From assembly GCF_008807075.1 (NCBI RefSeq), contig NZ_CP035632.1:2852001-2916000 (forward strand): 64,000 nt of DNA, written 5' to 3'. The position numbers and the translations under genes were made by a program. Under the pieces are notes generated by a model, which made no database searches, had not been told where the DNA came from, and saw nothing but the letters and a program-made list of their open reading frames with translations. This DNA comes from Synechococcus sp. RSCCF101. Its GTDB lineage: Bacteria > Cyanobacteriota > Cyanobacteriia > PCC-6307 > Cyanobiaceae. Positions 6,682 to 53,931 of this stretch are shown piece after piece. Positions within the stretch are counted from its first letter, which is position 1. Each line of letters starts with the position of its first letter.

Positions 6682-8367
<1,686 letters not shown>

Positions 8368-8458
8368 TCCGATCCACGCAGGGGTCGCAGCCATGCGCCG
8401 CGACCCCTCATCGGTTGGCCATGGCCGGTGCCACGTGCAGCGGCCGGACGGACGAAGC

Positions 8459-8483: not shown

Positions 8484-8504
8484 GTTCCTCGTTTTCAGTG
8501 CGCT

Positions 8505-9274: not shown

Positions 9275-9280
9275 GGCGAA

Positions 9281-10930: not shown

Positions 10931-11002
10931 CGGGTCTTCTTCAGCACTTCTTCATGATCCAACGCTAACCCTGGGGCCTTCAGCCGCAGCACGCCGGCCC
11001 GC

Positions 11003-11041
11003 TCAGGTCAGACAACCTGAACACAGTCCACTTCCTAGTGT
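11003..11041 (+). promoter_or_regulatory. Possible pyrR promoter region with small inverted repeat
   Basis: TCAGGT (11003-11008) pairs with ACCTGA (11015-11020) around a 6-nt loop. TAGTGT at 11036-11041 is a possible -10 box. Transcription would then start only about 10 bp before the pyrR start codon. No clear -35 box was seen, so this is a weak call. Confidence 0.3.
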
Positions 11042-11055
11042 GATGGGCGCAGACG

Positions 11056-11634
11056 GTGAGAATGGAACGAAGCTCCGGCGCGGTTGACGCCCTGCAGCGG
11101 GTAGAGATCCTCTCGGCGGAGGCTCTGCGCCGCACCATCCGACGCCTGGCCTCCCAGGTGCTGGAGAGCGTCCAGGACGCCGGCGATCTGGTGCTCCTAG
11201 GAATTCCTACCCGCGGCGTGGCCCTTGCCGATGTGCTGGCCGCCGAGATCGAACGCGTCTCCGGCCATCCCGTGGACCGCGGAACGCTGGACCCCACCTT
11301 CCACCGGGATGATCTCGAGCGGGTCGGCACGCGGCTGGTCGAACCCACGCAGCTGCCGGCGTCGGTCGAAGACCGGGAGGTGGTGCTGGTGGATGACGTG
11401 ATCTTCACCGGGCGCACGGTGCGTGCCGCGCTGGAGGCGCTTCAGACCTGGGGCAGGGCCCGCCGCGTGCAGCTGGTCGCGATGGTGGATCGGGGCCACC
11501 GCGAACTGCCGATTCAGCCCGACTTCTGCGGCCGGCTCGTCCCCACCAGCCGGCTGGAGCGCATTCATCTCTGTCTGGCCGCGATCGACGGAGAGGAGGG
11601 CGTCTATCTGATCAAGGAGCCCGCCGCCGACTGA
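11056..11634 (+). CDS. pyrR: PyrR: pyrimidine regulatory protein / uracil phosphoribosyltransferase
   Basis: 192 residues. The PRPP-binding loop VVLVDDVIFTGRTVRAALE (about 113-131) is the diagnostic motif, preceded by LVLLGIPTRGVALA and DPTFHRDDL and followed by RRVQLVAMVDRGHRELPI. In Bacillus PyrR binds pyr mRNA attenuators; in cyanobacteria it may act mainly as a UPRTase. No pyr biosynthesis genes adjoin it here. It can start at GTG 11056 or ATG 11062 (MERSSGAVDALQ). Confidence 0.92.
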   Translation: MRMERSSGAVDALQRVEILSAEALRRTIRRLASQVLESVQDAGDLVLLGIPTRGVALADVLAAEIERVSGHPVDRGTLDPTFHRDDLERVGTRLVEPTQLPASVEDREVVLVDDVIFTGRTVRAALEALQTWGRARRVQLVAMVDRGHRELPIQPDFCGRLVPTSRLERIHLCLAAIDGEEGVYLIKEPAAD

Positions 11635-11648
11635 TCCGGATCCGCCGG

Positions 11649-12479
11649 TCAGCGACGGCAGGCGCTTTCCGGTCCGAACTCCTCGATGCGACCGCCCAGC
11701 TCGCGGCAGCCCGCCTCGAACGCCTGCCAGGCATCCATCCCGGCAGCCAGGTGGCGCTGCACAACCGGGTCGAGCTCCTCGGCCGGCACCGCATCCGAGG
11801 GGCCGTCGCCATGGGTGTGCAGAGCCTCCTCAGCTTCGCGGCTGGCTTCGATGCCGGCCTCGGCCCTGCGTCGCAGATCGGCGGCCCGGTTCTGCCACCA
11901 CGGGTGATCCAGCCGGTTGATCGCTGCGAGGGCTTCCCACCAGCGCTCCTCCCGGACCAGACGATCCCCACGGTCATGGTCGAGCTGGTTGCGGTTCCAG
12001 ATCTCCCTGAAGGTGTCGCCCAGGGCGTCGCCATCAGCGTTGCCGGCGACGCCGAGGGGCTCGAGCAGGGCCAGGGAACGGTCCAGATCACCCTCCCGGA
12101 AGCGCTCCACAGCCTGGTTGCGCAGCTGGTCCTCCCAGACCACGAGCCGCTCCCTGTCGCTGTCAAGGGCAACCGGTGACTGGGCCAGCTTGCGCTGGAG
12201 CGCGATGGCGCCGGTCCATTCCGAGCGGCTCCAGAGCTGCTCCGCCTGGGTTCGGCGGCATCCCGCCTGGGCGTCCTGACCACCGCCTGACAACCAGCGC
12301 AGGGCGGCCATCTGCTCGCCATACCGCAGGCAGGCCTCCAGATCCCCCCGCGCGGCCGCGGCCTCGAGTCGTCTGGGCAGCTGCTTCTCCCACCAGAGGG
12401 CCGATCCGACTCCGGCCGCCACCAGGGACAGGGTGGCCACCAGCCAGAACCGCGGGAGCCGGTGGCGGCGCAGGGCCAA
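11649..12479 (-). CDS. Membrane-anchored protein of unknown function next to Hsp70
   Basis: 276 residues from a TTG at 12479. One N-terminal transmembrane segment (FWLVATLSLVAAGVGSALWW, about 11-30) is followed by a long, soluble, Trp- and Arg-rich helical region with motifs such as GDLEACLRYGEQMAAL, EWTGAIALQRKLAQSP and GDLDRSLALLEPLG. These resemble degenerate TPR-like helical pairs. It lies 67 bp downstream of the Hsp70-like gene on the same strand, so the two are probably co-transcribed. I do not recognise a named family. It converges on pyrR, with 14 bp between stops. Confidence 0.75.
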   Translation of the reverse strand: MALRRHRLPRFWLVATLSLVAAGVGSALWWEKQLPRRLEAAAARGDLEACLRYGEQMAALRWLSGGGQDAQAGCRRTQAEQLWSRSEWTGAIALQRKLAQSPVALDSDRERLVVWEDQLRNQAVERFREGDLDRSLALLEPLGVAGNADGDALGDTFREIWNRNQLDHDRGDRLVREERWWEALAAINRLDHPWWQNRAADLRRRAEAGIEASREAEEALHTHGDGPSDAVPAEELDPVVQRHLAAGMDAWQAFEAGCRELGGRIEEFGPESACRR

Positions 12480-12546
12480 CGCCTGAAATGAAGGGGTTTT
12501 GCAATCCTAGGCGGATTGCGTCTCCGCTCCGACCTGCCGTGAGGGT

Positions 12547-14190
12547 TCAGCGGAGCGTGCCGAGCACGATCTCACCCATCTCCGCCTCTGTGAGCAGATC
12601 CCTCCAGCTCAGGGTCAGGGCGCCGCGGCCCGTGATCGACCAGCGCAGGAGCACGCGGTCGCTGCCCGGCTGACCGGGGGGGCTGAGCGGAAGGGTCAGG
12701 GGATCACCTGGCCAGGGTCGTGCCGTCTCCCGTTCCGGGTCGTCGTCCTGTCCGACAGGCATGACCACCGGCAGGCCGTCCACCATCACCACCTCCCGCT
12801 GGGAGCGCAGCGTGGGCTCACCCAGGACGAGCTCGATCGCGGGCTGGTCGGGATGCTGGCAGCCGAGCACCAGCTCCAGTGGCGTGGTGGTGGGCGTGGT
12901 CTGGCCGGCGAGGAAGAGCGGGTGCCAGCGATGCACCGACTGACGACGGTCCCAGGTGCGCAGGCTCACGCCCCGATGCAGCACATCCTGGATTGCCACG
13001 TTCGGCGTCAGCGAGAGGGCTCCCCGGGAGACGGCCTCGATCGGATGGCGGTCCAGGCAGCGCCAGCGTCCGCAGCGCTCCTGCAGCCAGCGACGCACCA
13101 GGGGCAGCCGGGCGGACCCGCCCACCGGCAGCACCGCATCGATCTGTTCCTCCGCCACGCTGCCAGCCCTGGCGCCGGTGAGCACCTCCTCCAGCATCCG
13201 GTCGAGTGCGCCCTCCAGGCCGTTCCGCTGCAGAAGATCGTCCAGTTCACTCCGCGTCAGCCTCAGCCGAGCGGTGTCCGGGTCCCCGTCACCGGTCAGT
13301 TCCACCTCCTCCGCTGGGTCCTCACGGCCGTTCACCTCAGCGTCACTGAGGCGGCACTTCAGCCGTTCGGCCGCCCGGAGCAGGGCCGCGGAAGCCGGCC
13401 GATCCGGGCAGAGATGCCGGGCGATCCAGCGATCCACATCCCGCCCGCCCAGACGGAGGCCGGCCTTGGCGATCACCCTGGCGCATCGCAGCGTCTGGCC
13501 GCCGGAGTCCCGCTGCGGCAGGTCCCGCCCCGCGAACCGGAGCAGCTGGGCAAGGGGCGCTGCCCGTCCCTCTCCCCCCTCCAGGGCGACCAGCGCCATG
13601 TCGATCGTTCCTCCGCCCAGATCCACCACGAGCAGTCGGGACCCGGCCGGCACCCCGGCACCGATGGCCGCGGCGGTGGGTTCGTCCACCAGAGCCACCT
13701 CGGGGATGTCCAGCGAGGCCACGGCCTCCATCAACCAGCTCCGGTAAGCCCTGTAGCCATCCACCGGTGCGGTCAGGACGAGCCGGTCGGGCACCAGCTC
13801 GCCGGGCAGACGCGCCCAGAGTCGCTGGATCAGCAGCGAGCCCGCAGTCTCAGCAGAGAACGCGGGAAGCGAGGCCTCGACGGGACGCTCCACGCCGGGC
13901 GGAGCACCGATCCAGCGCTTGAAATCCCGCTTCAGCTCGGTGGCGGGAGCCACATCCAGACCCGCCTCCAGCACCTGCCGGCCCACCAGGACCGCCCCAT
14001 CCGGGATCGTTCCATCGGCTCGGGCCTCCATCGCCGCTCCGCCCCGGGACCAGACCAGGCTGGGGATGACGGCAGGATCCCCGAGCGAGAGCTCCGGGAT
14101 CGCCACCAGCTCGCAGGTCGGGCTGCCGCTGGCCTGAAACGCCACGACGGTGGTGGTGCTGCCCAGGTCGATCGCAAGCGTGCCGTGCAT
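12547..14190 (-). CDS. Divergent Hsp70-family protein
   Basis: 547 residues. The nucleotide-binding domain is clear: phosphate-1 loop LAIDLGSTTTVVAFQ (about 5-19), a KRDFKRWIG segment, the connect motif LVDEPTAAAIGAG, the phosphate-2 loop LLVVDLGGGTIDMALV and adenosine motif AVLPVGGSARLPLVRRW. The remaining 160 residues do not look like a canonical DnaK substrate domain and the EEVD-type tail and obvious helical lid are missing. It is shorter than DnaK (about 640). It is not dnaK2 or dnaK3 by this tail. Its partner may be the membrane-anchored protein downstream. Confidence 0.85.
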   Translation of the reverse strand: MHGTLAIDLGSTTTVVAFQASGSPTCELVAIPELSLGDPAVIPSLVWSRGGAAMEARADGTIPDGAVLVGRQVLEAGLDVAPATELKRDFKRWIGAPPGVERPVEASLPAFSAETAGSLLIQRLWARLPGELVPDRLVLTAPVDGYRAYRSWLMEAVASLDIPEVALVDEPTAAAIGAGVPAGSRLLVVDLGGGTIDMALVALEGGEGRAAPLAQLLRFAGRDLPQRDSGGQTLRCARVIAKAGLRLGGRDVDRWIARHLCPDRPASAALLRAAERLKCRLSDAEVNGREDPAEEVELTGDGDPDTARLRLTRSELDDLLQRNGLEGALDRMLEEVLTGARAGSVAEEQIDAVLPVGGSARLPLVRRWLQERCGRWRCLDRHPIEAVSRGALSLTPNVAIQDVLHRGVSLRTWDRRQSVHRWHPLFLAGQTTPTTTPLELVLGCQHPDQPAIELVLGEPTLRSQREVVMVDGLPVVMPVGQDDDPERETARPWPGDPLTLPLSPPGQPGSDRVLLRWSITGRGALTLSWRDLLTEAEMGEIVLGTLR

Positions 14191-14275
14191 GGCTGAGTTC
14201 TTGAAGCTTTCCTGCTGGCGGGTTCCTCAGGCGCGCTCCCTCGCCAGCTTGGGAAGAGACGGTCGATCAAGTGTC

Positions 14276-14566
14276 ATGGGTGGAGAGCGCCTGCAGCGAC
14301 TTCTGTTCTCCTTCTACAGGGAGGAGCCTCACCTCTGGGATCGCCTCGAGCCGCTGCAGGACTGCCAGTTCTCCCGCCTCTGGGGGGTGCTTCGGGTCCA
14401 TTGCGTCGACGGCGCCCACCTGGAGGAGGTCAACGCCCTGATCGATCTGCTCAGAGCCCCGATCCTGGCCCTGGGCCTGGCCAGGCAGATCGTGCTCCGG
14501 GCGCCCGGCCGGCCCACGCGCAGCTACCCCGTGCGGGTGAGCCTTTCGCCGGATCTCCTGGCCTGA
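14276..14566 (+). CDS. Small protein of unknown function
   Basis: 96 residues from the ATG at 14276 (MGGERLQRLLFSFYREEPHL). It is rich in Leu, Arg and Val, with RLWGVLRVHCVDGAHLEEV and RQIVLRAPGRPTRSYPVRVS; the pattern suggests a small mixed alpha/beta fold. There is no signal peptide or membrane helix. It is divergent from the Hsp70-like gene and lies 43 bp upstream of rpoZ on the same strand. I do not recognise the family. Coding potential is supported by position, codon use and lack of overlap. Confidence 0.6.
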   Translation: MGGERLQRLLFSFYREEPHLWDRLEPLQDCQFSRLWGVLRVHCVDGAHLEEVNALIDLLRAPILALGLARQIVLRAPGRPTRSYPVRVSLSPDLLA

Positions 14567-14609
14567 GGGCCTCGCCTAGAGTCAGCTTCTCCGTTGCCGC
14601 ACCTCGCGC

Positions 14610-14834
14610 TTGAGCCTTCATCCCAATGCCAACGACCTCGCCCAGAGGGCCGAGAGTCTGATCGCCAAGTCGAGCAACCGGTATCTCACCACCGTGAGGG
14701 TTGCCTTCCGCGCCAAGCAGCGCCGCTTTGACGATTTCGACGGCCTGCTCGAGGAAGCACCCCTGAAGCCCGTTCAGCGGGCGATCGTGGAACTCAGCGA
14801 TGAACAGGACCAGCCCGCTCTGCTCGCCGGCTGA
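14610..14834 (+). CDS. rpoZ: RNA polymerase subunit omega
   Basis: 74 residues from a TTG start. The sequence [20 protein letters not shown], then [15 protein letters not shown] and [20 protein letters not shown], fits the cyanobacterial omega subunit. Omega helps assemble beta-prime. Just upstream, CCTAGAGTCAGCTT at 14575-14588 resembles the -10 region of the small gene at 45749, so it may have its own promoter (TAGAGT at 14577-14582). No ATG is available in frame. Confidence 0.88.
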
Positions 14835-14878
14835 GTCGGCTGCAGTGAACCGCTGGTCTGACCTCCCGATCAGGACGG

Positions 14879-15289
14879 GTGATCGTTGAGGAGGGACCTG
14901 GTTGGCGGTTCAGCCTGGACAGAACCCGCGAGACCCATGCCCTGCTGCTTGCCGGAGAGGATTGGGCTGCGGAGTTCACGCTGCAGGAGGGTCACGACCT
15001 GGCCCGCGCGGCGGCCGATCTGGAGCGGGAATGGTCTCGCTGCTCGGCGAATCTGATGCCCGAGGAGGAGCTCTGCCTGGAGCTCGAGCGTGGTGAGCTG
15101 TGGGTTCAGCTGGAGGGCTGTCGCCAGCAGCGCACGCTCCGGTTCGTCCTCACGCCGGCGCAGCCCGGCCGTCGCGGCGTCGAGGGGGCCTGGCACGGAG
15201 CGGCGACCCGCGCGCTGATGGCCTCGCTGCGGTTGCTGCGACAGGGGGCTCTCACCGATGCCGGTGGCGTTGACGCCTCACCCGTCTGA
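14879..15289 (+). CDS. DUF1818 family protein
   Basis: 136 residues from a GTG start. The opening VEEGPGWRFSLD and ALLLAGEDWAAEFTLQEGHDLARAAADL pattern, with ELCLELERGELWVQLEG and FVLTPAQPGRRGVEGAWHGAA, matches the cyanobacteria-specific DUF1818 family, which has no known function. It probably follows rpoZ in one transcript (44 bp gap). Its 3' end overlaps the convergent membrane-protein gene by 12 bp. Confidence 0.82.
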   Translation: MIVEEGPGWRFSLDRTRETHALLLAGEDWAAEFTLQEGHDLARAAADLEREWSRCSANLMPEEELCLELERGELWVQLEGCRQQRTLRFVLTPAQPGRRGVEGAWHGAATRALMASLRLLRQGALTDAGGVDASPV

Positions 15290-38913: not shown

Positions 38914-38958
38914 GGTCTGCGGGCATTTGCGGCTCGGCCGCATGTCCTCAGACTTGTG

Positions 38959-41529
38959 ATGGCCGGCCACCGACAGGGATCCCTTCGTGCAGCACTGACT
39001 CGTGTCTCCTGGGCCCTGGCACTGAGCGGTGGCGCCGGCCTCATGCTGGATGGGATGGGCCCGGCACGGGCTGCTGAGCTTCCCTCTGATGCGGGCGTTG
39101 GGTCAGTGGTTGAGCTGGCCGGGCGTGCCGGTGCCGGAGAGTCCCGCGCCGCCCTCGCCGCTCTCTCGGGTGCCTCCACGGGCGTGACCTCGGTGGCCTC
39201 GGCCCTGGACGGGGCTGTTGCAGCCCTGGGCCGCACGGCGCTGTCACCACACGTGGTGACCCTCCCCCGGCTGGAGCCCCTCCCTCCGCTGGAGTCTCTC
39301 CCCCCACAGGCTGGCGAGAGCCGGCTGCCCAACGCCCAGCTGGCCCAAGCCGACGACGCTGATCCCGCCGCCCCCCCCGCTGAGGTGGAGGAGATCGAAG
39401 TGGAAGAGATCGAGGTTGAGACGGTCGAGGAGGTCCCCGCTCCCGATGCACCACCTGCCGGCGGCGGGGTGGAGGGCGCTCCGGGCCCCGCGGCGGAAGA
39501 CTTCAATCAGGAGCCGGCCGAGCCGCAGGTTCTGATCAGCGAGGTGGTGATCGAGGGCCTGGAGGGCCATCCCGAGCAGGAACGGCTCGAGCTGGAGGCC
39601 TACGACGCGATGCGCACCCGGCCGGGCAGCCTGGTGACCCGTTCGGAGCTGAGAACCGATCTCTCGGCGATCTACGCCACGGGCTGGTTCTCCGATGTGC
39701 GGATCCAGCCGGTCGATGGTCCTCTGGGCGTGCAGGTGGTGGTGATGGTCACCCCCAACCCGGTGCTCACCGAGGTGGATCTCGACCCCAGCGACGCCCG
39801 CATCCCAGACCAGATCGTTGCCGACACCTTCGCCGCTGATTTCGGACGCACCCTCAATCTGAATGTGCTCCAGACGCGCATGAAGGAGCTGCAGACCTGG
39901 TATGCGGATGAGGGCTTCTCTCTGGCGCGGGTCACCGGCCCGGAGCGGGTCAGCCCCCAGGGTGTGGTCGAGCTGAAGATCAGCGAAGGTCTGGTGGCCG
40001 GTGTGGAGGTGGAGTTCCTCAATCGGGAAGGGGAGAACGTCGATGAGAACGGCGAGCCGGTGCGGGGCAAGACCAGGCCCTGGGTGATCACCCGGGAGAT
40101 CTCCCTGCAGCCGGGCGATGTGTTCAACCGCAACGACCTGGAGGCGGATCTGCAGCGCCTCTACGGAACGAACCTCTTCAGCGATGTGAAGGTGAGCCTC
40201 AAGCCGGTGCCGGAGACGCCGGGTGAGGTCACCATCCTCCTGGGCATCGTCGAGCAGTCCACCGGCTCACTTTCAGGGGGCCTGGGCTACAGCCAGAGCC
40301 AGGGTGTGTTCGGTCAGATTCAGGTCAGTGACTCGAACCTGCTCGGGCGGGCCTGGAACACGGCCCTCAACTTCACCTACGGCCAGTTCGGCGGTCTGGC
40401 GACCCTGAGCTTCACAGACCCCTGGATCCGGGGTGACCGGCATCGCACCGCCTTCAACGCCCGCCTGTTCATCAGCCGGGAGGTGCCCCAGATCTTCCAG
40501 AGCCAGGACAACGGCAACATCCGCACTGCGTCGGATTTCTACGAGGCTCCCGGCACCGACATCGCCTACGACATCGATTCCGACAACAACCCGGCCGGCC
40601 GCAAGTTCGATTCCGTCGGCCAGGCGGAGGATCTGTTCCCGGACGAAAGCTGGTACGACTACCGCGGCAACACGGTGGCCCTCGAGCGCTTCGGCGGCAC
40701 GATGCAGTTCATCCGTCCCATGAACGGGGGTGACCCGTTCAAGCGGGCTCCGTGGACGCTGGTGCTCGGACTCAATGCCCAGCAGGTGCGCCCGATCGAT
40801 TTCACCGGTGCCAGCCGACGCTTCGGCGTGGGCACCCAGGACCGAACCGAAAGCCGGGTCCCCACCGATGATGTCATCTGCATCGCCTACAACTGCGCCA
40901 GCGAGAACCAGCTCGTGGGGCTGCGCTTCGCCGCCACGATGAACAATCTCGATGACCCCCGCAATCCCCGCGAGGGCAACTTCCTCAGCATGAGCACCGA
41001 GCAGTTCGTTTCGGTGGGTGAGGATTCACCCACCTTCAACCGACTGCGCGCCACCTACACCCAGTTCTTTCCGGTCAACTGGCTGAAGTTCTACAAGGGC
41101 TGCCGGCCCGAGCCCGGCGAACCGGAGGACTGCAAGCAGGCCCTGGCCTTCCAGGTGAAGGCGGGCACGGTGATCGGTGATCTGCCTCCCTATGAAGCGT
41201 TCTGTGTGGGCGGCACCAACTCGGTTCGGGGTTACTTCGAATGCGACCTGGCGGTGGGCCGCAGCTTCGGCGAGGCCACAATCGAATACCGCTTCCCGAT
41301 CTGGAGCATCATCAGTGGCGAGGTCTTCGCCGATGCCGCCACCGATTTCAGCAGCCAGTCTGCGGTGCCGGGCGAACCGGGCAACATCCTCGACAAGCCC
41401 GGCAGCGGCTTCTCCCTCGGCACCGGCGTGATCGTGACCACCCCGGTGGGCCCCCTGCGGCTGGAGGCTGCCAGCCGCGATCTCAGCGGCGACTGGCGCT
41501 TCAACCTGGGGGTGGGCTGGAAGTTCTGA
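38959..41529 (+). CDS. bamA: Outer-membrane assembly protein BamA/Omp85
   Basis: 856 residues from the ATG at 38959; a GTG one codon earlier is possible. A signal peptide ends near ARAAE (about 37). Residues 38-190 form an Ala/Pro/Glu-rich extension with the acidic repeat EVEEIEVEEIEVETVEE. POTRA domains follow from about 190 (VLISEVVIEGLEGHPEQERLE, VLTEVDLDPSDARIPD, GVEVEFLNREGENVDENGE), then the 16-strand barrel (GGLGYSQSQGVFGQIQVSD, GTNSVRGYFECDLAVG) ending in an aromatic GVGWKF. It inserts beta-barrels into the outer membrane. lpxC starts 2 bp later. Confidence 0.95.
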   Translation: MAGHRQGSLRAALTRVSWALALSGGAGLMLDGMGPARAAELPSDAGVGSVVELAGRAGAGESRAALAALSGASTGVTSVASALDGAVAALGRTALSPHVVTLPRLEPLPPLESLPPQAGESRLPNAQLAQADDADPAAPPAEVEEIEVEEIEVETVEEVPAPDAPPAGGGVEGAPGPAAEDFNQEPAEPQVLISEVVIEGLEGHPEQERLELEAYDAMRTRPGSLVTRSELRTDLSAIYATGWFSDVRIQPVDGPLGVQVVVMVTPNPVLTEVDLDPSDARIPDQIVADTFAADFGRTLNLNVLQTRMKELQTWYADEGFSLARVTGPERVSPQGVVELKISEGLVAGVEVEFLNREGENVDENGEPVRGKTRPWVITREISLQPGDVFNRNDLEADLQRLYGTNLFSDVKVSLKPVPETPGEVTILLGIVEQSTGSLSGGLGYSQSQGVFGQIQVSDSNLLGRAWNTALNFTYGQFGGLATLSFTDPWIRGDRHRTAFNARLFISREVPQIFQSQDNGNIRTASDFYEAPGTDIAYDIDSDNNPAGRKFDSVGQAEDLFPDESWYDYRGNTVALERFGGTMQFIRPMNGGDPFKRAPWTLVLGLNAQQVRPIDFTGASRRFGVGTQDRTESRVPTDDVICIAYNCASENQLVGLRFAATMNNLDDPRNPREGNFLSMSTEQFVSVGEDSPTFNRLRATYTQFFPVNWLKFYKGCRPEPGEPEDCKQALAFQVKAGTVIGDLPPYEAFCVGGTNSVRGYFECDLAVGRSFGEATIEYRFPIWSIISGEVFADAATDFSSQSAVPGEPGNILDKPGSGFSLGTGVIVTTPVGPLRLEAASRDLSGDWRFNLGVGWKF

Positions 41530-41531
41530 GC

Positions 41532-42395
41532 GTGGACTGGCCAGCCGATTACAGCGGCCGCTGGACCCTGGCCGGCTCCAGCAGCCGGCGTGGAGATGGA
41601 CTGCACAGCGGATCCAGCGGGTCAGTGCGTCTGGAGCCATCCGAGGTCGACGGCTTCTGGGTGCAGTGGTCGGATTCCGGCAGCGAGGGTCCCGTCCGGC
41701 TGCAGCCTGGCCAGGTCACCGACACCCGCCTCTGCACCGCCCTGGGCTTCGACAATGGCCGTCGCCTGGCCACGGTGGAGCATCTGCTGGCGGCCCTCGC
41801 CGGCTGCGGTGTGACCCAGGCCCGACTGATCGTGCAGGGGGAGGAGGTGCCGCTGCTGGATGGCTCGGCCCAGCCCTGGGTGGAGGCGATCGCCGAAGCG
41901 GGCCTGGCCCCTCTGGCGGAGCCCCCCACACGTCCGGTGGTGCGGGAACCGCTCACGGTGCAGGAGGGCACGTCGTTCGTCACGGCGCTGCCCTCCGATC
42001 GTCTGCGCATCGCCGTGGGCGTCGACTATCCCCAGGCGGCGATCGGCCGCCAGTTGGTCAGCTTCACCCTCACCCCCGAGGTGTTCGTGCGTGAGGTGGC
42101 CCCGGCCCGCACCTTCGGCTTCCGGGAGCAGCTCGAGCAGTTGCGGGCGGCCGGGCTGATCCGCGGCGGCAGCCTGGAGAATGCCCTGGTCTGCGATGGC
42201 GACCGCTGGGTCAATCCGCCCCTGCGCCAGCCCGATGAACCGGCGCGCCATAAGCTGCTGGACCTGTTGGGGGATCTGGCTCTGGTGGGTCTGCCGCGGG
42301 CCCAGGTGTTCGCCTTCCGCGCCTCCCACACCCTTCACACCCGCCTGGCCGCCGCCCTGGCGGCGTCCCCATCGCCTGAACCGATCGCTTCGTGA
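41532..42395 (+). CDS. lpxC: UDP-3-O-acyl-N-acetylglucosamine deacetylase
   Basis: 287 residues from a GTG start at 41532 ([17 protein letters not shown]). [14 protein letters not shown] provides a zinc histidine, [12 protein letters not shown] follows, and [25 protein letters not shown] and [14 protein letters not shown] supply the rest of the site. It performs the committed step of lipid A synthesis. The stop overlaps fabZ by 4 bp. An N-terminal frame extension into bamA is not conserved. Confidence 0.93.
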
Positions 42396-42847
42396 CCGCG
42401 CCGTCCACCACCCCCTGCCTGCTCTCGAGTGAAGCGATCCAGGGCCTGCTGCCCCATCGCTACCCCTTCGCCCTGGTGGACCGGGTGATCGCCCACGAGC
42501 CCGGCAAGCGGGCCGTGGCGCTCAAGAACGTGACCGTGAATGAGCCCCAGTTCCAGGGGCATTTCCCCGGCCGCCCCCTGATGCCGGGGGTCCTGATCGT
42601 GGAGGCGATGGCCCAGGTGGGGGGGCTGATCGTCACCCAGATGCCTGATCTGCCCAAGGGCCTGTTCGTGTTCGCCGGGATCGACGGGGTGCGCTTCCGC
42701 CATCCGGTGGTGCCGGGTGATCAGTTGCTGATCACCTGTGAGCTGCTCAGCCTGAAACGGCGCCGGTTCGGCAAAGTGAAGGCTGAAGCCACGGTGGAGG
42801 ACAAGCTGGTGTGCTCGGGGGAGCTGATGTTCTCGCTGGTGGACTGA
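42392..42847 (+). CDS. fabZ: 3-hydroxyacyl-ACP dehydratase FabZ
   Basis: 151 residues from a GTG start. [37 protein letters not shown] (catalytic His and Glu) and [13 protein letters not shown] are the hot-dog family signature. FabZ supplies unsaturated acyl-ACP for fatty acids, and its place between lpxC and lpxA reflects competition for 3-hydroxyacyl-ACP. The lpxA ATG lies 3 bp later. Confidence 0.96.
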
Positions 42848-42850
42848 TCG

Positions 42851-43684
42851 ATGACTCCGTCGGCCCTGCAGACCCGGGTTCACCCCACCGCCATCGTTGA
42901 TCCCCGCGCCCAGCTGGGGGTTGGGGTGGAGATCGGGCCCTACGCGATCATCGGCCCGGAAGTGAGCCTCGGCGATGGCTCTTCCATCGGTCCGCATGTG
43001 GTGATCGAGGGTCGGGTCACCATGGGCAGCCGCAACCGGGTGTTCCCCGGTGCCTGCATCGGCCTGGAGCCGCAGGATCTCAAATACAGCGGTGCGCCCA
43101 CCGAGGTGGTGATGGGTGATGACAACAGCATCCGTGAGTGCGTGACCATCAACCGGGCCACCCATGAGGGGGAGCGCACCCAGCTGGGCAGCGGCAACCT
43201 GCTGATGGCCTACAGCCACCTCGGTCACAACTGCCTGCTCGGCGACCGGGTGGTTATCGCCAACAGCGTGGCCGTGGCGGGCCACGTGCACATCGACGAC
43301 CGGGCCGTGATCGGTGGTGTGCTGGGCATCCACCAGTTCGTTCACATCGGCCGGCTGGCCATGGTGGGCGGGATGAGTCGCATCGACCGCGACGTGCCGC
43401 CCTTCTCGATCGTGGAGGGGCACCCCGGGCGTGTGCGGGGTCTCAACCGCATCGGCCTGCGGCGCAGCGGTCTGGCCCAGGCGGATGGCGGCGCCCAGAT
43501 GCGTCAGCTGCAGCAGGTCTGGACCCTGCTCTACAAGGGCGACCGGGTGCTGGCCGATGCGCTGCGGGAGGCCCGCGAGCTGGATCTGCTGCCGCCGGCG
43601 GCCCATCTGTGCGAGTTCCTCGAGGCCTCGATCGGCCCCGGCCGGCGCGGTCCCCTCCCGCCGCCGGTGGCCCAGAGCCGCTGA
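42851..43684 (+). CDS. lpxA: UDP-N-acetylglucosamine acyltransferase
   Basis: 277 residues. Left-handed beta-helix hexapeptides run from [20 protein letters not shown] through about residue 190; the motif [20 protein letters not shown] holds the catalytic His, and [21 protein letters not shown] the substrate site. A helical C-terminal domain ends it. It adds the first acyl chain to UDP-GlcNAc. Its TGA shares a base with the lpxB ATG. Confidence 0.96.
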
Positions 43685-44886
43685 TGGTGCGGCTGCTGAT
43701 CAGCACCGGCGAGGTCTCCGGTGATCTCCAGGGCAGCCTTCTGATCCAGGCCCTGCACCGGCGCGCAGCAGCCCGCGGCGTGGAGCTCGAGGTTCATGCC
43801 CTCGGAGGGCCGCGGATGGAACGGGCCGGCGCCACCCTCCTGGCGGACACCGCGCCGATGGGCGCCATCGGGCTCTGGGAGGCGCTGCCCCTGGTGCTGC
43901 CCACCCTGAAGCTGCAGCGGCGTGTGGATGCCTGGCTGCGCCGGACCCCGCCCGACGGGGTGGTGATGATCGATTACATGGGCGCCAACGTGAGCCTCGG
44001 CCGCAGACTGAGGCGCCGGCATCCCGACCTGCCGATCCTGTACTACATCGCGCCGCAGGAGTGGGCCTTCCGCCTCGGTGAGGGCGGCACCACGCGGCTG
44101 CTCGGCTTCACCGACCTGATCCTGGCGGTGTTCCCCGAGGAGGCCCGCTTCTATGCCGAGCGCGGGGCGTCCGTGTCCTGGGTCGGCCATCCCCTGCTCG
44201 ACACCGTCCGCGACGGCCCCGACCGGCAGCAGGCCCGTCGGGAGCTGGGCCTGGCGGACGATGAACGCCTGCTCCTGCTCCTGCCGGCTTCGCGCCAGCA
44301 GGAGCTGGCCTACCTGATGCCGGCCATGGCCGAGGCCGCCGCCAGGCTCCAGGCCCGGCACCCGAAGCTTCGGGTGATCCTCTCGGCCAGCATGGAGCGC
44401 TTCGAAGCCCCCCTGCAGCGCATGATCGGCGCCGCCGGGCTCAGGGCACGCATGATCGGGGCCGATCAGGCCGATGCCATGAAGCCGGTGCTGTTCGCGG
44501 CCGCCGATCTGGCGCTGACCAAATCCGGCACGGTGAACCTGGAGCTGGCTCTGCGGGATGTACCCCAGGTGGTGGGCTACCGGCTGAGCCGGATCACGGC
44601 CTTCGTGGCCCGCTGGCTGCTGCGCTTCAACGTGGCGCACATCTCACCGGTGAACCTGCTGCTGCACGAACGGCTGCTGCCGGAGCTGCTGCAGGACGAG
44701 TACACCGTGGAGCGGCTGGTGGATGAGGCCGAACGCCTGCTGAACGACGGGCTGCCCCGACAGCAGGTTCTGGACGGGTATGCGCGCCTTCGAGGCGTGC
44801 TCGGCGATCCGGGCGTGACGGACCGGGCCGCCGATGCCGTTCTCGATCGCCTCGTGCCCGCAGCCAGGGCCACCCTGCCGGCCTGA
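43684..44886 (+). CDS. lpxB: Lipid-A-disaccharide synthase
   Basis: 400 residues from the ATG at 43684. [71 protein letters not shown] and [11 protein letters not shown] are typical of GT19. It condenses UDP-diacylglucosamine with lipid X at the membrane. It ends the lpxC-fabZ-lpxA-lpxB run. lpxD and later Kdo genes are not in this window. Confidence 0.95.
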
Positions 44887-46437: not shown

Positions 46438-46488
46438 TGACCACAACTATCCGGAGCAGGACGTGGGTACGGTTGATCGAACGTGTCT

Positions 46489-49400
46489 ATGGCCTTGCGG
46501 ATGGGAGTCCAGGACGAGAGACCGGCGCTGGTCAAGCTGGCCATCCCCGTCGGTCTCGCGCCCCTGCTCCTGGCCGCCAGCCTCGGCAGCGGTGTCGCCC
46601 GGGCCGGTGAGATCAAGGGTGCCTCCGGCCTCCAGAGTCTCGGCTCGGTCATCAACGGCATCCGCAACGGCTCCTGCACCGCCGGTCACTGCTCCATCAC
46701 CGGTGGCACCGGCGCCGGCAGCAACCTCTTTCACCGTTTCGAAAAATTCGATACACGCGGCTCCATCAGCGGTGCCTCGATCAACAACGATTCCTTCTCC
46801 AACGTCATCGTCGGCGTCATCGATCCCGCCGGCAGCTTCATCAACAAGATGGTCGCCCTCTCCAGCAAGGGCAATCTCTTCTGGCTCTCTCCCGGCGGCA
46901 TCTCCCTCACCGCCGGTGGCGGCTTCACCAACGTCGCCACACTCCAGCTCAGCACCGCCACCACACTCGCCGTCGGCTCCGGTTTCTTTGACGTCTACGG
47001 CAGCACCGCCTCACAGGTCGCCGGTCTCCGCGGCATCCCCATCCCAGGCTCACCTGGCCTGAGCACCGATCCCGCCAGCCTTTCCGCCATCGGCCTCTCG
47101 GCCAACGGAGACCTGACCATCGACGATGGCCTGCTCACCGTTGATCACTCCCTCCTCCTCGATTCACAGGGCGGTCATCTCCTCCTTAACGCCAGCAGCC
47201 TCTCCGCAGACGGCGGAACGATCGCCCTGGCCGGACGCTCCGTCTCGCTCGAGTCCTCCAGCCTCGATGTCAGCAATGACATCGGCAGCGGTGGATCGGT
47301 GTCGATCGATGCGGCTGACATCGTCATCGCCTCCAGCTCCATCAACGCCAGTGGCGCCACCGCCGGCGGCTCCATCTCCATCGCCGCCACGGGCAGCGTC
47401 AACCTCAGCGATTCCGATCTGACCGCCATCGGGGGGGATGGCTCCCTCCCCCTCCCCGGCGGAGCAGGCGGAGACGACACCACACAGACCGCCGACGCCG
47501 ACACCACGGCAGAGAGCACCGATGCCTCTGCGACCGCAACGGCCGCAGAGGACAACGGCAGATCCACAGAGTCGAGCCAGACCACCCCATCAACAGCAGA
47601 GACCGAGACCGCCCCCGGCGCCGATGAACCCGACGCCTCCACAACGGTGAGCACAGGCGAGCCCGAGCCCAAGCCCGAGCCCGAGCCCGAGCCACAGGAC
47701 ACTCCACAGCTGGACACCCAACCGTCCACCGCCGAGGCCAGCGCAGCCACAGACCCTGACCCTGACCCTTCCGGCAGTCTCCCCGGCAGCAGCACCGAAA
47801 CGGACGGCTCGGCTCGCAACGACGCGGCCCCGGCCGCACCGGACACCGCAGACGCCCCAGCGCCGGGCGGCACGATCCGCATCAGCGGGGCCGACATCGC
47901 CATCACCGGCGGCAGCCTGGATGCCTCCGGCAGCACGGACAGCGGACAGATCGCCACCGACTCCTCCTCCGCCAGCACATGGAGCCCCTCGCTGCAGAGC
48001 ACCGGTCTGGCAACACAGATGGATCAGGCCATCGGAGAGGCCACCGATCCCGCTTCGCCAGATCCGCTGCTCCAGCAGGAAGACAACACATCCACTCAAA
48101 CCAGCCTCAGCCCTGAGCCCACGGCTCCAGCAACAGAGAGCAGCACGACGCTCGTCTCACAGGCCGGCGGCAGCGCCGAGGCAACGACACCAGACATCCC
48201 GGCCGCTGCGGAACCGGCAGACGAACCCGAACCGGCAACAACAGCGGATGCAGCAGAACCGGCCGGCGGGGCCATCACGCTCCAGGCCGCAGACACCCTC
48301 ACCCTCACCGGCGCCACCCTCACCGCCAACGGCTCAGGGTCCCAGGCCCGCGGCGGCTCGATCCTCCTGGAAGCAGACGCCATCGCCCTGGCCGCCAGCT
48401 CCATCGATGCCAGTGGCACCGCCGCAGGCGGCACCGTTCGGATCGGTGGCGGACGGCGCGGTGAGGACACCTCCATCCGCAATGCCTCCACCCTCACGGC
48501 CGGTGCCGACACCACCATCAGCGTTGAGGCCACAACCGCTGGCGATGGCGGTGAGCTGATCCTCTATGCCTCAGACGTCGCCTCCATCGATGCGCAGCTC
48601 TCCGCCACAGGCGGTGCCGACTCCGGTGACGGCGGCTTCATTGAAACCTCCGCCGGCTTCCTCTCCGTCACCCAGGCTCCGGATATCTCCGCAACCAACG
48701 GCAACGCAGGCACGTGGCTCATTGATCCCTACAACATCGACATCGTCACCACGCCTGACTCGCGCATCACCACAGGCACACCGTTTCAGGGCACAGGGGA
48801 TGGCACCCAGAACAGTCAGCTCAGCGCCACCACCCTGAACACAGCACTCAACGCCGGCGGCACAGTTCAGATCGATACACAGGGTGCACCCTCCACCCCC
48901 GCCGGCAACATCCGCATCCTCGCGCCGATCAGCACCACGGCAGGAACAGGCGGCGCCACCCTGGTCTTCCTCGCTAACGGCAGCATTGAACTAGACGCCG
49001 ACATCCAGTCCACCGCCAATGCGCTGGACGTGGAGTTCATCGTCGATGCTGACAACAGCTCAGGCGGAGAGACCTTCCAGTGGTCCAGCGGGACCCTGGA
49101 TCTCCGGGGCGGTACAGCCAAAGCACTGACTGGAGATTCGGCAACAGATGGGCCAACCGTCATCAACGGCGCGGCTGTCGTGGCCAGCAACACCACCTTC
49201 CAAACCGGAACCACGTCTCTCGCCACCACATCGCTGACGGTCGACGGCGCCTACAACGACCTCAACGGCTTCTCCATGTCCGGCGGAACGCTGACGGGCA
49301 GCGGAGACATCACCCTCTCGGGCAACAACACATGGAGCGGCGGCACCATCTCCGGCAACGGTCAACTCACTGTCTCAGGGCCCCTTGAAATCTCAGGATC

Positions 49401-52400
49401 CACCGTCCCCACCGTCCTCGATGGACGCACCCTTAAGCACACCAACGCTGAGGGCTCCTCAAGCCTTGTTTCCGGCGCCACTGTCAGTCTCGGCAATGGT
49501 GCCACCTTCCTAAACGACACTGGAGCACACCTCAAGATAGAGGTTGTTGGTGAGAACGGTGTTACCGCTATCCGTGAGAGGGTGGACGAGGAAGGTATTT
49601 TTCGCAATAAAGGAAAAGTTGTGAAGAGTGGTCTTGGTTTGTTTCGCACTGGCCTCAGGCGCTCCACCAAGTTTACGTTCGAGAACGAGAGCTCTGGCGA
49701 GATTTTTATCCTGGAGGGACGGATTCGTGTCCGGCATCTCTTTGATCAAGAGGGGGCGATCGAGATCTCTGAAGGTGCGACACTGCGAGTGCCAGTTGGA
49801 TTCACTAACGATGGCACAATTAGCGGTCAGGGAAGGATTGGTCTGGACGATCAGGATCGTGGTGTCATCTCTACCCTCATCAACGAAGGGACCATCTCCC
49901 CCGGAGGTATCGACAATGCAGGCTCCATCACCATTACCGGCAACCTGGAGCAAGGCAGCGAGGGGAAGCTTGAGCTGGAGATTGGCGGCACCGGCTCAAA
50001 CCAGTCCGATCAGATCGTCGTCAGCGGCACCACCTCCCTGGGCGGCTCCCTCAATGCCTCCTTGATCAACAGCTACGCGCCAGCCAACGGCGATCAGATC
50101 GAGATCGCTCTGATCGAGAGCACCGGTGCCATCAGCGGCAGCTTCAGCAGCGAACCCCTCCCCCCAGGCTTCACCTCTCAGACCGACACCACCAGCACGC
50201 CGCAGAGCTTTGATCTGGTCTTTTTCAGCTGTGCCAACGGCACCATCTGCTGGGACGGCGGCGGCACCGACAACCTCTGGAGCACAGCTGAGAACTGGAA
50301 TACCGATCTCCTCCCCACAAGCATCGATCAGGTGGCCCTGGAACTGATCGGTGGAGACGCCATTCTCTTTGACGGCTCCGGTGCTGCCAATAACGTCTCG
50401 ATCGCCAGCCTGTTCTCCACAGCCGATAACAGCCTCACCATCAGCGGCGGCAGCCTCTCGCTCGACTCCACAACGCTTGCGTCGACGCTGAATGGAGGGC
50501 TGACTCTCAGCGGCGGCAGTCTGGGTGGTGCGGGGGATCTGACCCTTGCTGGGTCCACCACTTGGAGCGGCGGCACCATCGCTGGCACCGGCGGCTTGAC
50601 GGTCTCAGGTCCGCTCGCCATCACCGACAGCACGGTCCTTGATGGACGCACCCTCACCAGCAGCAGCGGCGCCAGCTTCAGCCAGAACGGCAGCCTCGAA
50701 CTGACCAATGCCGCCACGCTCGCGGTGGCCGATGGCTTCACCAACGATGGCACCATCTCCGGCAACGGCACCATCGATCTGAGCGGCAGCGGCACCCTCA
50801 CCACCCTCACCAATGCCGGCACGCTGGCACCTGGTGGCACCGACTCAGCCGGCACCCTCACCATCGACGGCAATCTGCAGCAGGCCGCTGGCGGCACGCT
50901 CGCCTTGGAGCTCGGCGGCACCGGCTCAAACCAGTCCGATCAGATCGTCGTCAGCGGCACCACCTCCCTGGGCGGCTCCCTCAATGCCTCCTTGATCAAC
51001 AGCTACGCGCCAGCCAACGGCGATCAGATCGAGATCGCTCTGATCGAGAGCACCGGTGCCATCAGCGGCAGCTTCAGCAGCGAACCCCTCCCCCCAGGCT
51101 TCACCTCTCAGACCGACACCACCAGCACGCCGCAGAGCTTTGATCTGGTCTTTTTCAGCTGTGCCAACGGCACCATCTGCTGGGACGGCGGCGGCACCGA
51201 CAACCTCTGGAGCACAGCTGAGAACTGGAATACCGATCTCCTCCCCACAAGCATCGATCAGGTGGCCCTGGAACTGATCGGTGGAGACGCCATTCTCTTT
51301 GACGGCTCCGGTGCTGCCAATAACGTCTCGATCGCCAGCCTGTTCTCCACAGCCGATAACAGCCTCACCATCAGCGGCGGCAGCCTCTCGCTCGACTCCA
51401 CAACGCTTGCGTCGACGCTGAATGGAGGGCTGACTCTCAGCGGCGGCAGTCTGGGTGGTGCGGGGGATCTGACCCTTGCTGGGTCCACCACTTGGAGCGG
51501 CGGCACCATCGCTGGCACCGGCGGCTTGACGGTCTCAGGTCCGCTCGCCATCACCGACAGCACGGTCCTTGATGGACGCACCCTCACCAGCAGCAGCGGC
51601 GCCAGCTTCAGCCAGAACGGCAGCCTCGAACTGACCAATGCCGCCACGCTCGCGGTGGCCGATGGCTTCACCAACGATGGCACCATCTCCGGCAACGGCA
51701 CCATCGATCTGAGCGGCAGCGGCACCCTCACCACCCTCACCAATGCCGGCACGCTGGCACCTGGTGGCACCGACTCAGCCGGCACCCTCACCATCGACGG
51801 CAATCTGCAGCAGGCCGCTGGCGGCACGCTCGCCTTGGAGCTCGGCGGCACCGGCTCAAACCAGTCCGATCAGATCGTCGTCAGCGGCACCACCTCCCTG
51901 GGCGGCTCCCTCAATGCCTCCTTGATCAACAGCTACGCGCCAGCCAACGGCGATCAGATCGAGATCGCTCTGATCGAGAGCACCGGTGCCATCAGCGGCA
52001 GCTTCAGCAGCGAACCCCTCCCCCCAGGCTTCACCTCTCAGACCGACACCACCAGCACGCCGCAGAGCTTTGATCTGGTCTTTTTCAGCTGTGCCAACGG
52101 CACCATCTGCTGGGACGGCGGCGGCACCGACAACCTCTGGAGCACAGCTGAGAACTGGAATACCGATCTCCTCCCCACAAGCATCGATCAGGTGGCCCTG
52201 GAACTGATCGGTGGAGACGCCATTCTCTTTGACGGCTCCGGTGCTGCCAATAACGTCTCGATCGCCAGCCTGTTCTCCACAGCCGATAACAGCCTCACCA
52301 TCAGCGGCGGCAGCCTCTCGCTCGACTCCACAACGCTTGCGTCGACGCTGAATGGAGGGCTGACTCTCAGCGGCGGCAGTCTGGGTGGTGCGGGGGATCT

Positions 52401-53931
52401 GACCCTTGCTGGGTCCACCACTTGGAGCGGCGGCACCATCGCTGGCACCGGCGGCTTGACGGTCTCAGGTCCGCTCGCCATCACCGACAGCACGGTCCTT
52501 GATGGACGCACCCTCACCAGCAGCAGCGGCGCCAGCTTCAGCCAGAACGGCAGCCTCGAACTGACCAATGCCGCCACGCTCGCGGTGGCCGATGGCTTCA
52601 CCAACGATGGCACCATCTCCGGCAACGGCACCATCGATCTGAGCGGCAGCGGCACCCTCACCACCCTCACCAATGCCGGCACGCTGGCACCTGGTGGCAC
52701 CGACTCAGCCGGCACCCTCACCATCGACGGCAATCTGCAGCAGGCCGCTGGCGGCACGCTCGCCTTGGAGCTCGGCGGCACCGGCTCAGGCCAAGCGGAC
52801 CGATTGACTGTCCGCGGCCAGGTCGATCTTGCCGGAGCTATCGAAACCAATCTGATTAACGGCTTCAATCCAGCTGATGGAGATCGCATCGTCGTTCTCG
52901 ACAGCACCGGTGTGCGTGGCGACTTTGATAGTCAAGATGATGTGCCTGCTGGATTGGTCATCCAGCAATCGCCTTTGGCGGCACCAACCAGCTTGGCTCT
53001 TGTTGATCCTGTGCCGGAAGATCCGACACCACCACCAGTTCCAATTCCAGACATCCCGGAACCTTCACTACCCCCTGTGCCCGAGGCATCCGAACAGCCC
53101 GGGCCTGAGCCCCCGGCCCCGCCGAATGGTGGTGGATCGCCGCAGGCACCCCCAGTTGTCGACGCGCCCCAGCCCGAGAGCACGACGCAACCCCTGACGG
53201 GTTCCCCTGGCCCGGTCGATCCGGCTGAGCCCTCCGAGCCTCGACTTCCTGGTCCTGTTGGGGAGTTGCTGGGTGATCCACAGGCGCAGGGCACTCTCCA
53301 GGCTGTCTCCGAGACCCAGACGGAACAGCAAACCCTCGGCACCCCGGGTGAAGATCCTGCTGCCCCATCTGCTGCCCCAGTCCCGATCGGGTCTGGTCCA
53401 TCGGAGGCTGGGTCGGAATCACCCGTAGCGCTTGGCCTTGGCGCGAGCGACTTCTCAGGCGGTGCGGCCGACTCTGAGTCTTCGACGGGCAATCAGGGGC
53501 CAGCAGGCTCTGCACCGGCTGATACCGGTACCTCTCCACAGGATGGAGCTGACGGTTCGGCCGATGCATCGGGTTCGCCTCAAGCCAGTGAGGGACCGTC
53601 GGAAAGCTCCGGCGATCGCGGCGACGACTCGGCCCAGGACGACAACTCGGGGGATGATCAAGAGGCGGGCGCGGCCGGTCCCCAGGACCCGGACAACCCC
53701 TTCGCCGGTCCTGCCGCTGTGCAGGCGCTGAGCCCCAGCCAGGCCACAGCGAGCATGAGTGAATCGGAACAACGATCCAGGGATCTGATGGAAAAGCTGC
53801 TGAATCTCAGAAGCTCTTCCTCAGGAAGCAACCTGGACGGGCCGCGAACGGTTCCAGGACCGGCTCAGCTGCAGCAGACTCTGCTCAACGCCATGGAAGT
53901 GGTGCGGCGACGCCTCCAGGGAGGCCTCTGA
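46489..53931 (+). CDS. Giant secreted filamentous-haemagglutinin-type protein with three identical 930-bp repeats
   Basis: 2480 residues from the ATG at 46489 (a GTG two codons earlier is possible). Residues about 12-39 form a signal peptide ending GVARA. About 40-200 is an FHA/TpsA-like secretion domain (SCTAGHCSITGGTGAGSNLF, KGNLFWLSPGGISLTAGGG). About 318-600 is a disordered Asp/Glu/Pro/Thr-rich linker with PEPKPEPEPEPQ. Near 718-750 is the FHA-type GFLSVTQAPDIS and GTWLIDPYNIDIV segment. Residues 1166-2095 are three copies of a 310-residue unit with CWDGGGTDNLWSTAENW and beta-helix strands. The last 385 residues are Pro/Asp/Ser-rich and end in a helix, with no barrel or sorting signal. 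A cell-surface or shed adhesin-like role is inferred. Confidence 0.85.
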   Translation: MALRMGVQDERPALVKLAIPVGLAPLLLAASLGSGVARAGEIKGASGLQSLGSVINGIRNGSCTAGHCSITGGTGAGSNLFHRFEKFDTRGSISGASINNDSFSNVIVGVIDPAGSFINKMVALSSKGNLFWLSPGGISLTAGGGFTNVATLQLSTATTLAVGSGFFDVYGSTASQVAGLRGIPIPGSPGLSTDPASLSAIGLSANGDLTIDDGLLTVDHSLLLDSQGGHLLLNASSLSADGGTIALAGRSVSLESSSLDVSNDIGSGGSVSIDAADIVIASSSINASGATAGGSISIAATGSVNLSDSDLTAIGGDGSLPLPGGAGGDDTTQTADADTTAESTDASATATAAEDNGRSTESSQTTPSTAETETAPGADEPDASTTVSTGEPEPKPEPEPEPQDTPQLDTQPSTAEASAATDPDPDPSGSLPGSSTETDGSARNDAAPAAPDTADAPAPGGTIRISGADIAITGGSLDASGSTDSGQIATDSSSASTWSPSLQSTGLATQMDQAIGEATDPASPDPLLQQEDNTSTQTSLSPEPTAPATESSTTLVSQAGGSAEATTPDIPAAAEPADEPEPATTADAAEPAGGAITLQAADTLTLTGATLTANGSGSQARGGSILLEADAIALAASSIDASGTAAGGTVRIGGGRRGEDTSIRNASTLTAGADTTISVEATTAGDGGELILYASDVASIDAQLSATGGADSGDGGFIETSAGFLSVTQAPDISATNGNAGTWLIDPYNIDIVTTPDSRITTGTPFQGTGDGTQNSQLSATTLNTALNAGGTVQIDTQGAPSTPAGNIRILAPISTTAGTGGATLVFLANGSIELDADIQSTANALDVEFIVDADNSSGGETFQWSSGTLDLRGGTAKALTGDSATDGPTVINGAAVVASNTTFQTGTTSLATTSLTVDGAYNDLNGFSMSGGTLTGSGDITLSGNNTWSGGTISGNGQLTVSGPLEISGSTVPTVLDGRTLKHTNAEGSSSLVSGATVSLGNGATFLNDTGAHLKIEVVGENGVTAIRERVDEEGIFRNKGKVVKSGLGLFRTGLRRSTKFTFENESSGEIFILEGRIRVRHLFDQEGAIEISEGATLRVPVGFTNDGTISGQGRIGLDDQDRGVISTLINEGTISPGGIDNAGSITITGNLEQGSEGKLELEIGGTGSNQSDQIVVSGTTSLGGSLNASLINSYAPANGDQIEIALIESTGAISGSFSSEPLPPGFTSQTDTTSTPQSFDLVFFSCANGTICWDGGGTDNLWSTAENWNTDLLPTSIDQVALELIGGDAILFDGSGAANNVSIASLFSTADNSLTISGGSLSLDSTTLASTLNGGLTLSGGSLGGAGDLTLAGSTTWSGGTIAGTGGLTVSGPLAITDSTVLDGRTLTSSSGASFSQNGSLELTNAATLAVADGFTNDGTISGNGTIDLSGSGTLTTLTNAGTLAPGGTDSAGTLTIDGNLQQAAGGTLALELGGTGSNQSDQIVVSGTTSLGGSLNASLINSYAPANGDQIEIALIESTGAISGSFSSEPLPPGFTSQTDTTSTPQSFDLVFFSCANGTICWDGGGTDNLWSTAENWNTDLLPTSIDQVALELIGGDAILFDGSGAANNVSIASLFSTADNSLTISGGSLSLDSTTLASTLNGGLTLSGGSLGGAGDLTLAGSTTWSGGTIAGTGGLTVSGPLAITDSTVLDGRTLTSSSGASFSQNGSLELTNAATLAVADGFTNDGTISGNGTIDLSGSGTLTTLTNAGTLAPGGTDSAGTLTIDGNLQQAAGGTLALELGGTGSNQSDQIVVSGTTSLGGSLNASLINSYAPANGDQIEIALIESTGAISGSFSSEPLPPGFTSQTDTTSTPQSFDLVFFSCANGTICWDGGGTDNLWSTAENWNTDLLPTSIDQVALELIGGDAILFDGSGAANNVSIASLFSTADNSLTISGGSLSLDSTTLASTLNGGLTLSGGSLGGAGDLTLAGSTTWSGGTIAGTGGLTVSGPLAITDSTVLDGRTLTSSSGASFSQNGSLELTNAATLAVADGFTNDGTISGNGTIDLSGSGTLTTLTNAGTLAPGGTDSAGTLTIDGNLQQAAGGTLALELGGTGSGQADRLTVRGQVDLAGAIETNLINGFNPADGDRIVVLDSTGVRGDFDSQDDVPAGLVIQQSPLAAPTSLALVDPVPEDPTPPPVPIPDIPEPSLPPVPEASEQPGPEPPAPPNGGGSPQAPPVVDAPQPESTTQPLTGSPGPVDPAEPSEPRLPGPVGELLGDPQAQGTLQAVSETQTEQQTLGTPGEDPAAPSAAPVPIGSGPSEAGSESPVALGLGASDFSGGAADSESSTGNQGPAGSAPADTGTSPQDGADGSADASGSPQASEGPSESSGDRGDDSAQDDNSGDDQEAGAAGPQDPDNPFAGPAAVQALSPSQATASMSESEQRSRDLMEKLLNLRSSSSGSNLDGPRTVPGPAQLQQTLLNAMEVVRRRLQGGL
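49279..49983 (+). repeat. Diverged upstream half-unit (B0) of the 930-bp repeat
   Basis: It encodes SGGTLTGSGDITLSGNNTWSGGTISGN and ends FTNDGTISGQGRIGLDDQ to LELEIGGTGS, which aligns with the second half (B, 405 bp) of each perfect unit, SGGSLGGAGDLTLAGSTTWSGG to LALELGGTGS. B0 is about 300 bp longer; the extra part (about 49480-49750) is AT-richer than its surroundings and is missing from the perfect copies. Confidence 0.75.
49984..52773 (+). repeat. Three tandem 930-bp direct repeats inside the surface-protein gene
   Basis: Copies at 49984-50913, 50914-51843 and 51844-52773 read as the same sequence on inspection, and the first 15 bases recur at 52774-52788. The period is exactly 310 codons, so the frame is kept. 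Each unit has an A half (525 bp, CANGTICWDGGGTDNLWSTA) and a B half (405 bp). Identity also holds at third codon positions, which indicates recent duplication or homogenisation. Confidence 0.95.
52774..53010 (+). repeat. Diverged downstream half-unit (A4) of the 930-bp repeat
   Basis: It encodes GSGQADRLTVRGQVDLAGAIETNLINGFNPADGDRI, which aligns with GSNQSDQIVVSGTTSLGGSLNASLINSYAPANGDQI at the start of each perfect unit. After about 75 residues the similarity ends and the Pro-rich tail begins. The CWDGGG part of the A half is not present here. Confidence 0.7.

Follow-up and report, generated by a model that had tools for sequence, protein, structure and literature searches.

Three identical repeats in one giant gene

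Why would a cyanobacterium carry three tandem copies of a 930-bp sequence within a single gene, and how did they come to be identical? Surface proteins with identical repeats are known mostly from pathogens and commensals, and escape from host immunity has been invoked to explain them. Here, the same design occurs in what is probably a free-living picocyanobacterium, Synechococcus sp. RSCCF101, in which the selective agents would have to be grazers, phages, or aggregation. We analyzed a 64-kb stretch of this genome (the window), which includes the giant gene, gW, that contains the repeats (Table 1).

The original prediction, made by reading the sequence, was that the same 930-bp unit occurs three times at 49984-52773, even at third codon positions. 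This is exact to the base. When the window was compared to itself at an offset of 930 nt, 49984-51858 and 50914-52788 were 100% identical over 1875 consecutive positions (1875 = 2 x 930 + 15). The array (49984-52788) comprises three copies of the unit and the first 15 bp of a fourth (52774-52788). In a base-by-base alignment, copies 2 and 3 have 0 differences from copy 1, so nothing marks any copy as old, and all 191 fourfold-degenerate codons per copy are alike across the array. Given two independent 930-bp comparisons between copies, the divergence among them is below about 0.16% (95% Poisson bound). As was also proposed, such an array must be very young or else homogenized.

We looked for exact repeats in the window and in the genome regions that contain paralogs of gW. 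No second exact repeat of 30 nt or more was found in a search of the whole 64-kb window. A search of the whole genome with the DNA of the unit found the three copies at this locus only, and the remaining matches were to paralogs (66-81% identity). Tandem Repeats Finder did not report the 930-bp array because the longest period it considered was 500.

Table 1. Features of gW and its paralogs. Coordinates are positions in the window, except those beginning with C1.
Feature	Coordinates	Strand	Basis
gW, giant TpsA-like exoprotein gene (2482 aa)	46483..53931	+	ORF from GTG; ATG at 46489 is an alternative start
5' block with the end of the signal region and the secretion domain; identity among all five paralogs 98-100%	46537..47442	+	blastn gW-gE, 99.4% over 906 bp; sliding windows
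TPS secretion domain	46678..47415	+	PF05860, E 2e-5, below curated cut-off; 11/14 relatives match
Low-complexity linker; allele of gA and gC (100%), not of gB and gE	47443..48258	+	Pairwise comparison, sliding windows
Left flank, diverged cassette end h1	49868..49983	+	Identity to the matching part of the unit is about two thirds
Crossover tract of 15 bp, GGCGGCACCGGCTCA, encoding GGTGS	49984..49998, again at 50914, 51844, 52774	+	Edge comparison
Array copy 1 (930 bp, 310 codons)	49984..50913	+	Offset-930 self-comparison
Single cassette in the protein register (SCANGTICWDGGG ... FDLVFF); this stretch was modeled as a beta-helix	50227..51156	+	Structure model
Array copy 2, identical to copy 1	50914..51843	+	Self-comparison, fourfold sites
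Array copy 3, identical to copy 1	51844..52773	+	Self-comparison, fourfold sites
Final tract occurrence, end of identity	52774..52788	+	Edge comparison
Right flank, diverged cassette end h2	52789..52895	+	Self-comparison
C-terminal tail (SESE.RSR.LM..LLNL ... L..TL.NAM..VR.R), which has a relative in gE	53704..53931	+	Translations compared
gA (4129 codons), gB (3102), and gC (4452), adjacent	C1:2,355,673-2,390,875	-	N-terminus homology
gE (1631 codons)	C1:2,696,385-2,701,277		N-terminus homology

The edges of the array preserve a crossover

At the left edge, 49868-49983 is about two thirds identical to the matching part of copy 2, and identity is total from 49984. At the right edge, identity stops at 51858/52788 and then decays over about 100 bp. 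The two flanks, h1 (upstream) and h2 (downstream), represent the same cassette end in two diverged forms that have a 15-bp tract in common: h1 reads ...GAGATT, the tract, and AACCAG, while h2 reads GAGCTC, the tract, and GGCCAA.... Each internal junction reads GAGCTC, the tract, and AACCAG. Read from the left, it changes from h2 to h1 inside the tract. Hybrid junctions of this kind are what a misaligned exchange between h1 and h2, shifted by 930 bp, should produce, and the length of the match (two units plus 15 nt) fits the prediction of this model. Unequal crossing-over had been suggested as a way to change the length of the fibre, and the hybrid junction is direct evidence that the array arose by unequal exchange. 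The founding event was perhaps template switching rather than RecA-mediated exchange, as a 15-bp tract is short for RecA.

The tract encodes residues 230-234 of the unit, which fall in a loop predicted at residues 230-238, with a strand on either side, so the hybrid junction keeps the frame and probably the fold. Similarly, a unit of exactly 310 codons (930 is a multiple of 3) could be gained or lost without a change of frame, which agrees with the proposed in-frame steps of 310 residues.

A putative secreted protein with a predicted beta-helix

The protein had also been described as secreted and beta-helical. The evidence for secretion is homology of its N-terminus to the TPS secretion domain, which is weak but family-wide and is seen as homology rather than by curated cut-offs. 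By itself, gW matches PF05860 with just 25.1 bits (the curated cut-off is 33.5), and its score against TIGR01901 is also below the curated cut-off. Among 14 relatives, 11 match PF05860 (best E value, 1.6e-8), and their profile retrieves EtpA, a TpsA protein with a solved structure, at 4.9e-9. At the site of the NPNG motif, the gW family has a conserved LSPGGI. The TPS domain suggests that the gW fibre may be located at the cell surface.

Each cassette starts with a conserved WDGGG...W....NW......P...D motif beside a Cys pair. When a single unit was folded together with 10 related cassettes, the model was all beta (pLDDT 86.9, pTM 0.87). Its top structural match is a metagenomic beta-helix domain (Z 18.2, rmsd 3.5, 278 aligned residues), and other beta-helix matches include pertactin (Z 15.6), IcsA (15.2), Ssp (14.6), and EtpA (14.6). 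Overall, the beta-helix matches range from Z 18.2 to 13. The 310-residue unit is thus predicted to fold as a beta-helix. These matches came from the fold search: a comparison of the cassette profile to PDB sequences gave nothing meaningful. A model of two units was too uncertain at their junction (pTM 0.55, with pLDDT below 50 at residues 312-344) for us to claim a continuous rod across units. We set aside weak Pfam matches to MlrA_C and Amnionless, which were below cut-off and probably reflect chance or a common short motif.

The genome encodes one ShlB-type TpsB (E 2.7e-20), which is about 0.49 Mb from gW and about 22 kb from the gA/gB/gC cluster. Presumably, this single TpsB exports gW. It lies about 7 kb from a CHAT-domain gene (L092:504-1847 and L092:8774-10561), and the 1967-aa ORF between them has RCC1-like DGSVVTWGD repeats and an RTX-like end. 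Within the window, a POTRA_2 match at 38956-41529 belongs to an Omp85/BamA-type protein, not a TpsB. This gene is upstream of genes for an lpxA-like acyltransferase and lpxB (38956-44886); a methionine sulfoxide reductase gene and then gW follow downstream.

Arrays and mosaicism in the paralogs

Four more giant genes in this genome (gA, gB, gC, and gE) encode the N-terminus of gW, and three of the four contain near-identical in-frame arrays. In gA, there are two arrays: 3.4 copies of 690 bp without mismatches, and 2.5 copies of 1296 bp with a single mismatch. The array in gC is 684 bp x 2.3, also with one mismatch. In gB, monomers of 567 and 573 bp alternate. The odd monomers are all identical, the two even monomers differ by 2, and odd and even monomers are separated by 5 differences and a 6-nt indel. 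The gB array is thus a dimeric higher-order repeat, which is a classic signature of unequal exchange that shifts two monomers at a time. No array was found in gE. All of the within-gene repeat offsets in the family are divisible by three. In contrast to the identity within the gW array, the protein sequences of cassette paralogs within the genome share only about 60% identity.

The paralogs are also mosaics. Across all five, the first 800 bp are 98-100% identical, but most of the following 1000 bp falls into two alleles, {gA, gC, gW} and {gB, gE}, that are just 47-73% alike. At their 3' ends, gB and gC have 2903 identical bp in common. The groupings by linker allele and by 3' end conflict, which implies recombination between genes, including between loci that are 0.3-0.5 Mb apart. 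The five genes thus combine one secretion domain with two linker alleles and conflicting 3' ends, and recombination affects single units as well as whole genes and joins loci that lie far apart.

Three other features of the family were seen. There are two types of signal peptide on one mature N-terminus (GEIKGASG), and the grouping by signal peptide (gA and gB versus gC, gE, and gW) conflicts with the linker alleles. An identical block of 3747 bp is present at the gA/gB and gB/gC junctions (C1:2367293-2371039 and 2376676-2380422; L024-L025) and runs from the 3' end of one giant gene through the intergenic region into the 5' end of its neighbor; with a spacing of 9383 bp, these blocks reflect unequal exchange at the scale of genes. 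Near the 3' end of gA (C1:2355788-2355791, minus strand, L024), a C4 tract replaces the C5 of gB and gC, so gA ends with ~40 codons read in a different frame and lacks the C-terminal tail. This could be due to phase variation, decay, or a homopolymer sequencing error.

Relatives in other genomes

The N-terminal domain is present in 27 of 151 genomes of the family, including the source genome. A search for the 310-aa unit at an E value of 0.001 had no hit in 39 relatives, although distant cassettes (36-42% identity) occur in L079 and L082. A scan of genome contigs gave only distant matches (36-39%). Other genera do have exoprotein arrays at 98.8-99.3% identity: 282 bp x 6 in L074, 792 bp x 2 in L083, and 276 bp x 2.7 in L087. 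Many of the relatives' ORFs have no array, but draft assemblies may hide some. The array in L074 (98.8% identity) spans aa 2098-2663 of a 3679-aa ORF (3882-14918), which is another candidate for a length-variable exoprotein.

How the array might have formed and what it might do

We propose, with a probability of roughly 70%, that the array is a tandem amplification of a 310-residue beta-helix cassette in the passenger of a TPS exoprotein, forming a length-variable stalk in which units are gained and lost in frame by recombination, so that the reach of the surface fibres varies. An exchange between h1 and h2 inside the tract would have created the first duplicated unit. Going from two units to three would need only recombination between identical 930-bp copies, and ordinary homologous recombination is predicted to keep adding or removing units. 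Each step would change the protein by +/- 310 residues without breaking the frame, or by about 7 nm of fibre, as scaled from FHA with its known residue count. FHA is about 500 Å long (PMC5422565). The products, presumably exported by the single TpsB, could act as fibres that contact other cells, surfaces, grazers, or phages. The zero differences, the hybrid junctions, the arrays in the paralogs and in other genera, and the mosaicism support recombination-driven amplification, and the TPS domain, the beta-helix model, and the single TpsB support the TPS exoprotein. Counting against this explanation, TpsB is not adjacent, gE has no array, the TPS scores of gW are below cut-offs, and the two-unit model is uncertain at its junction.

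A single, very recent, and neutral burst of duplication would involve the same exchange but neither ongoing length variation nor selection. The zero differences fit one recent event equally well, and gE, like many relatives, has no array. However, four of the five paralogs in one genome have young arrays with unrelated periods, gB has undergone at least two rounds of exchange, and arrays of near-exact repeats occur in other genera too, which one neutral accident would not predict. We consider such a burst unlikely, though a serious competitor. Perfect identity would look the same if the true gene had one or two units and the assembler had duplicated one, but an assembly artefact is very improbable. 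The h2/h1 hybrid junction requires a duplicated unit and is impossible from a one-unit gene, a join by the assembler across 15 bp is unlikely, there are real copy-to-copy differences in the gA, gB, and gC arrays, and the genome is one contig (2,984,853 bp). A copy number of exactly three is less secure than "more than one": two or four are possible. Finally, selection on the protein alone might keep copies alike, but all it would account for is the identity of the protein copies. The fourfold-degenerate codons are identical too, and cassette paralogs in the same genome have diverged to ~60%. The identity at third codon positions refutes protein-level selection as its cause, and we give this idea virtually no weight.

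Beyond amplification within gW, the cell probably uses recombination to make its surface fibres longer or shorter and to mix them, to judge from the comparison of the five genes. More tentatively, the family might be a recombination-driven repertoire: one TpsB would export all five giant exoproteins, gene conversion would keep their secretion domains alike, and in-frame exchange, amplification, and deletion of linkers and beta-helix cassettes would vary the length and composition of the fibres. We view this larger scheme as conceivable but doubtful.

Comparison to known systems

The founding crossover can be read as a 15-bp footprint at the gW locus, and the genome contains several arrays of graded age, so the birth, growth, and homogenization of such arrays should be directly measurable. 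Periscope proteins such as SasG, Rib, and Sgo_0707 are proposed to change length by intragenic recombination (PMC8201768, PMC9704523). They are surface-type proteins, as gW presumably is, and like gW they contain long tandem repeats whose DNA is nearly identical. They are recognized by near-identical DNA repeats that encode units of more than 50 residues; gW has 3 x 930 bp at 100% identity. Thus gW would work like a periscope protein, with repeat-number variation here being a prediction from one genome. Periscope units are mostly globular and have roughly 50-150 residues, whereas the gW unit is a predicted 310-residue beta-helix cassette, and gW, unlike periscope proteins, belongs to a recombining family of five genes. 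Three things are unusual in gW: a unit of this size and predicted fold, a founding crossover that is still preserved, and coupling to a gene family that recombines.

Among TPS proteins, CdrA of Pseudomonas aeruginosa is also giant and has a repeat region, and its size varies between strains with the number of repeats (PMC8201768). However, the CdrA repeats are MBG_2 domains (PMC8201768), which the gW unit does not match. Classical TpsA proteins such as Bordetella FHA and EtpA have an N-terminal TPS domain and a beta-helix passenger, as predicted for gW, but TpsA proteins typically have imperfect repeats (PMC5422565), whereas gW has perfect repeats, SPGG in place of NPNG, and a distant TpsB. 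The autotransporter ShdA has 4-6 PATR beta-helix repeats, and variation in their number has been reported (PMC9704523). The gW repeats are likewise predicted to be beta-helical, but PATR had no match in 11 cassettes up to E 0.5, and the export routes differ (TPS in gW, autotransporter in ShdA). Our literature search on TPS proteins of picocyanobacteria found nothing on the gW family.

In related cyanobacteria, SwmB and other giant surface proteins of marine Synechococcus have been linked to motility and resistance to grazing (PMC9387257). These proteins resemble gW in being very large, repetitive, and of surface type. Those tabulated in PMC9387257 have RTX or cadherin-like domains, whereas gW is a putative TPS beta-helix protein. 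In a Nostoc strain that was selected for phage resistance, an FHA-domain protein was mutated (PMC10811720, Table 1).
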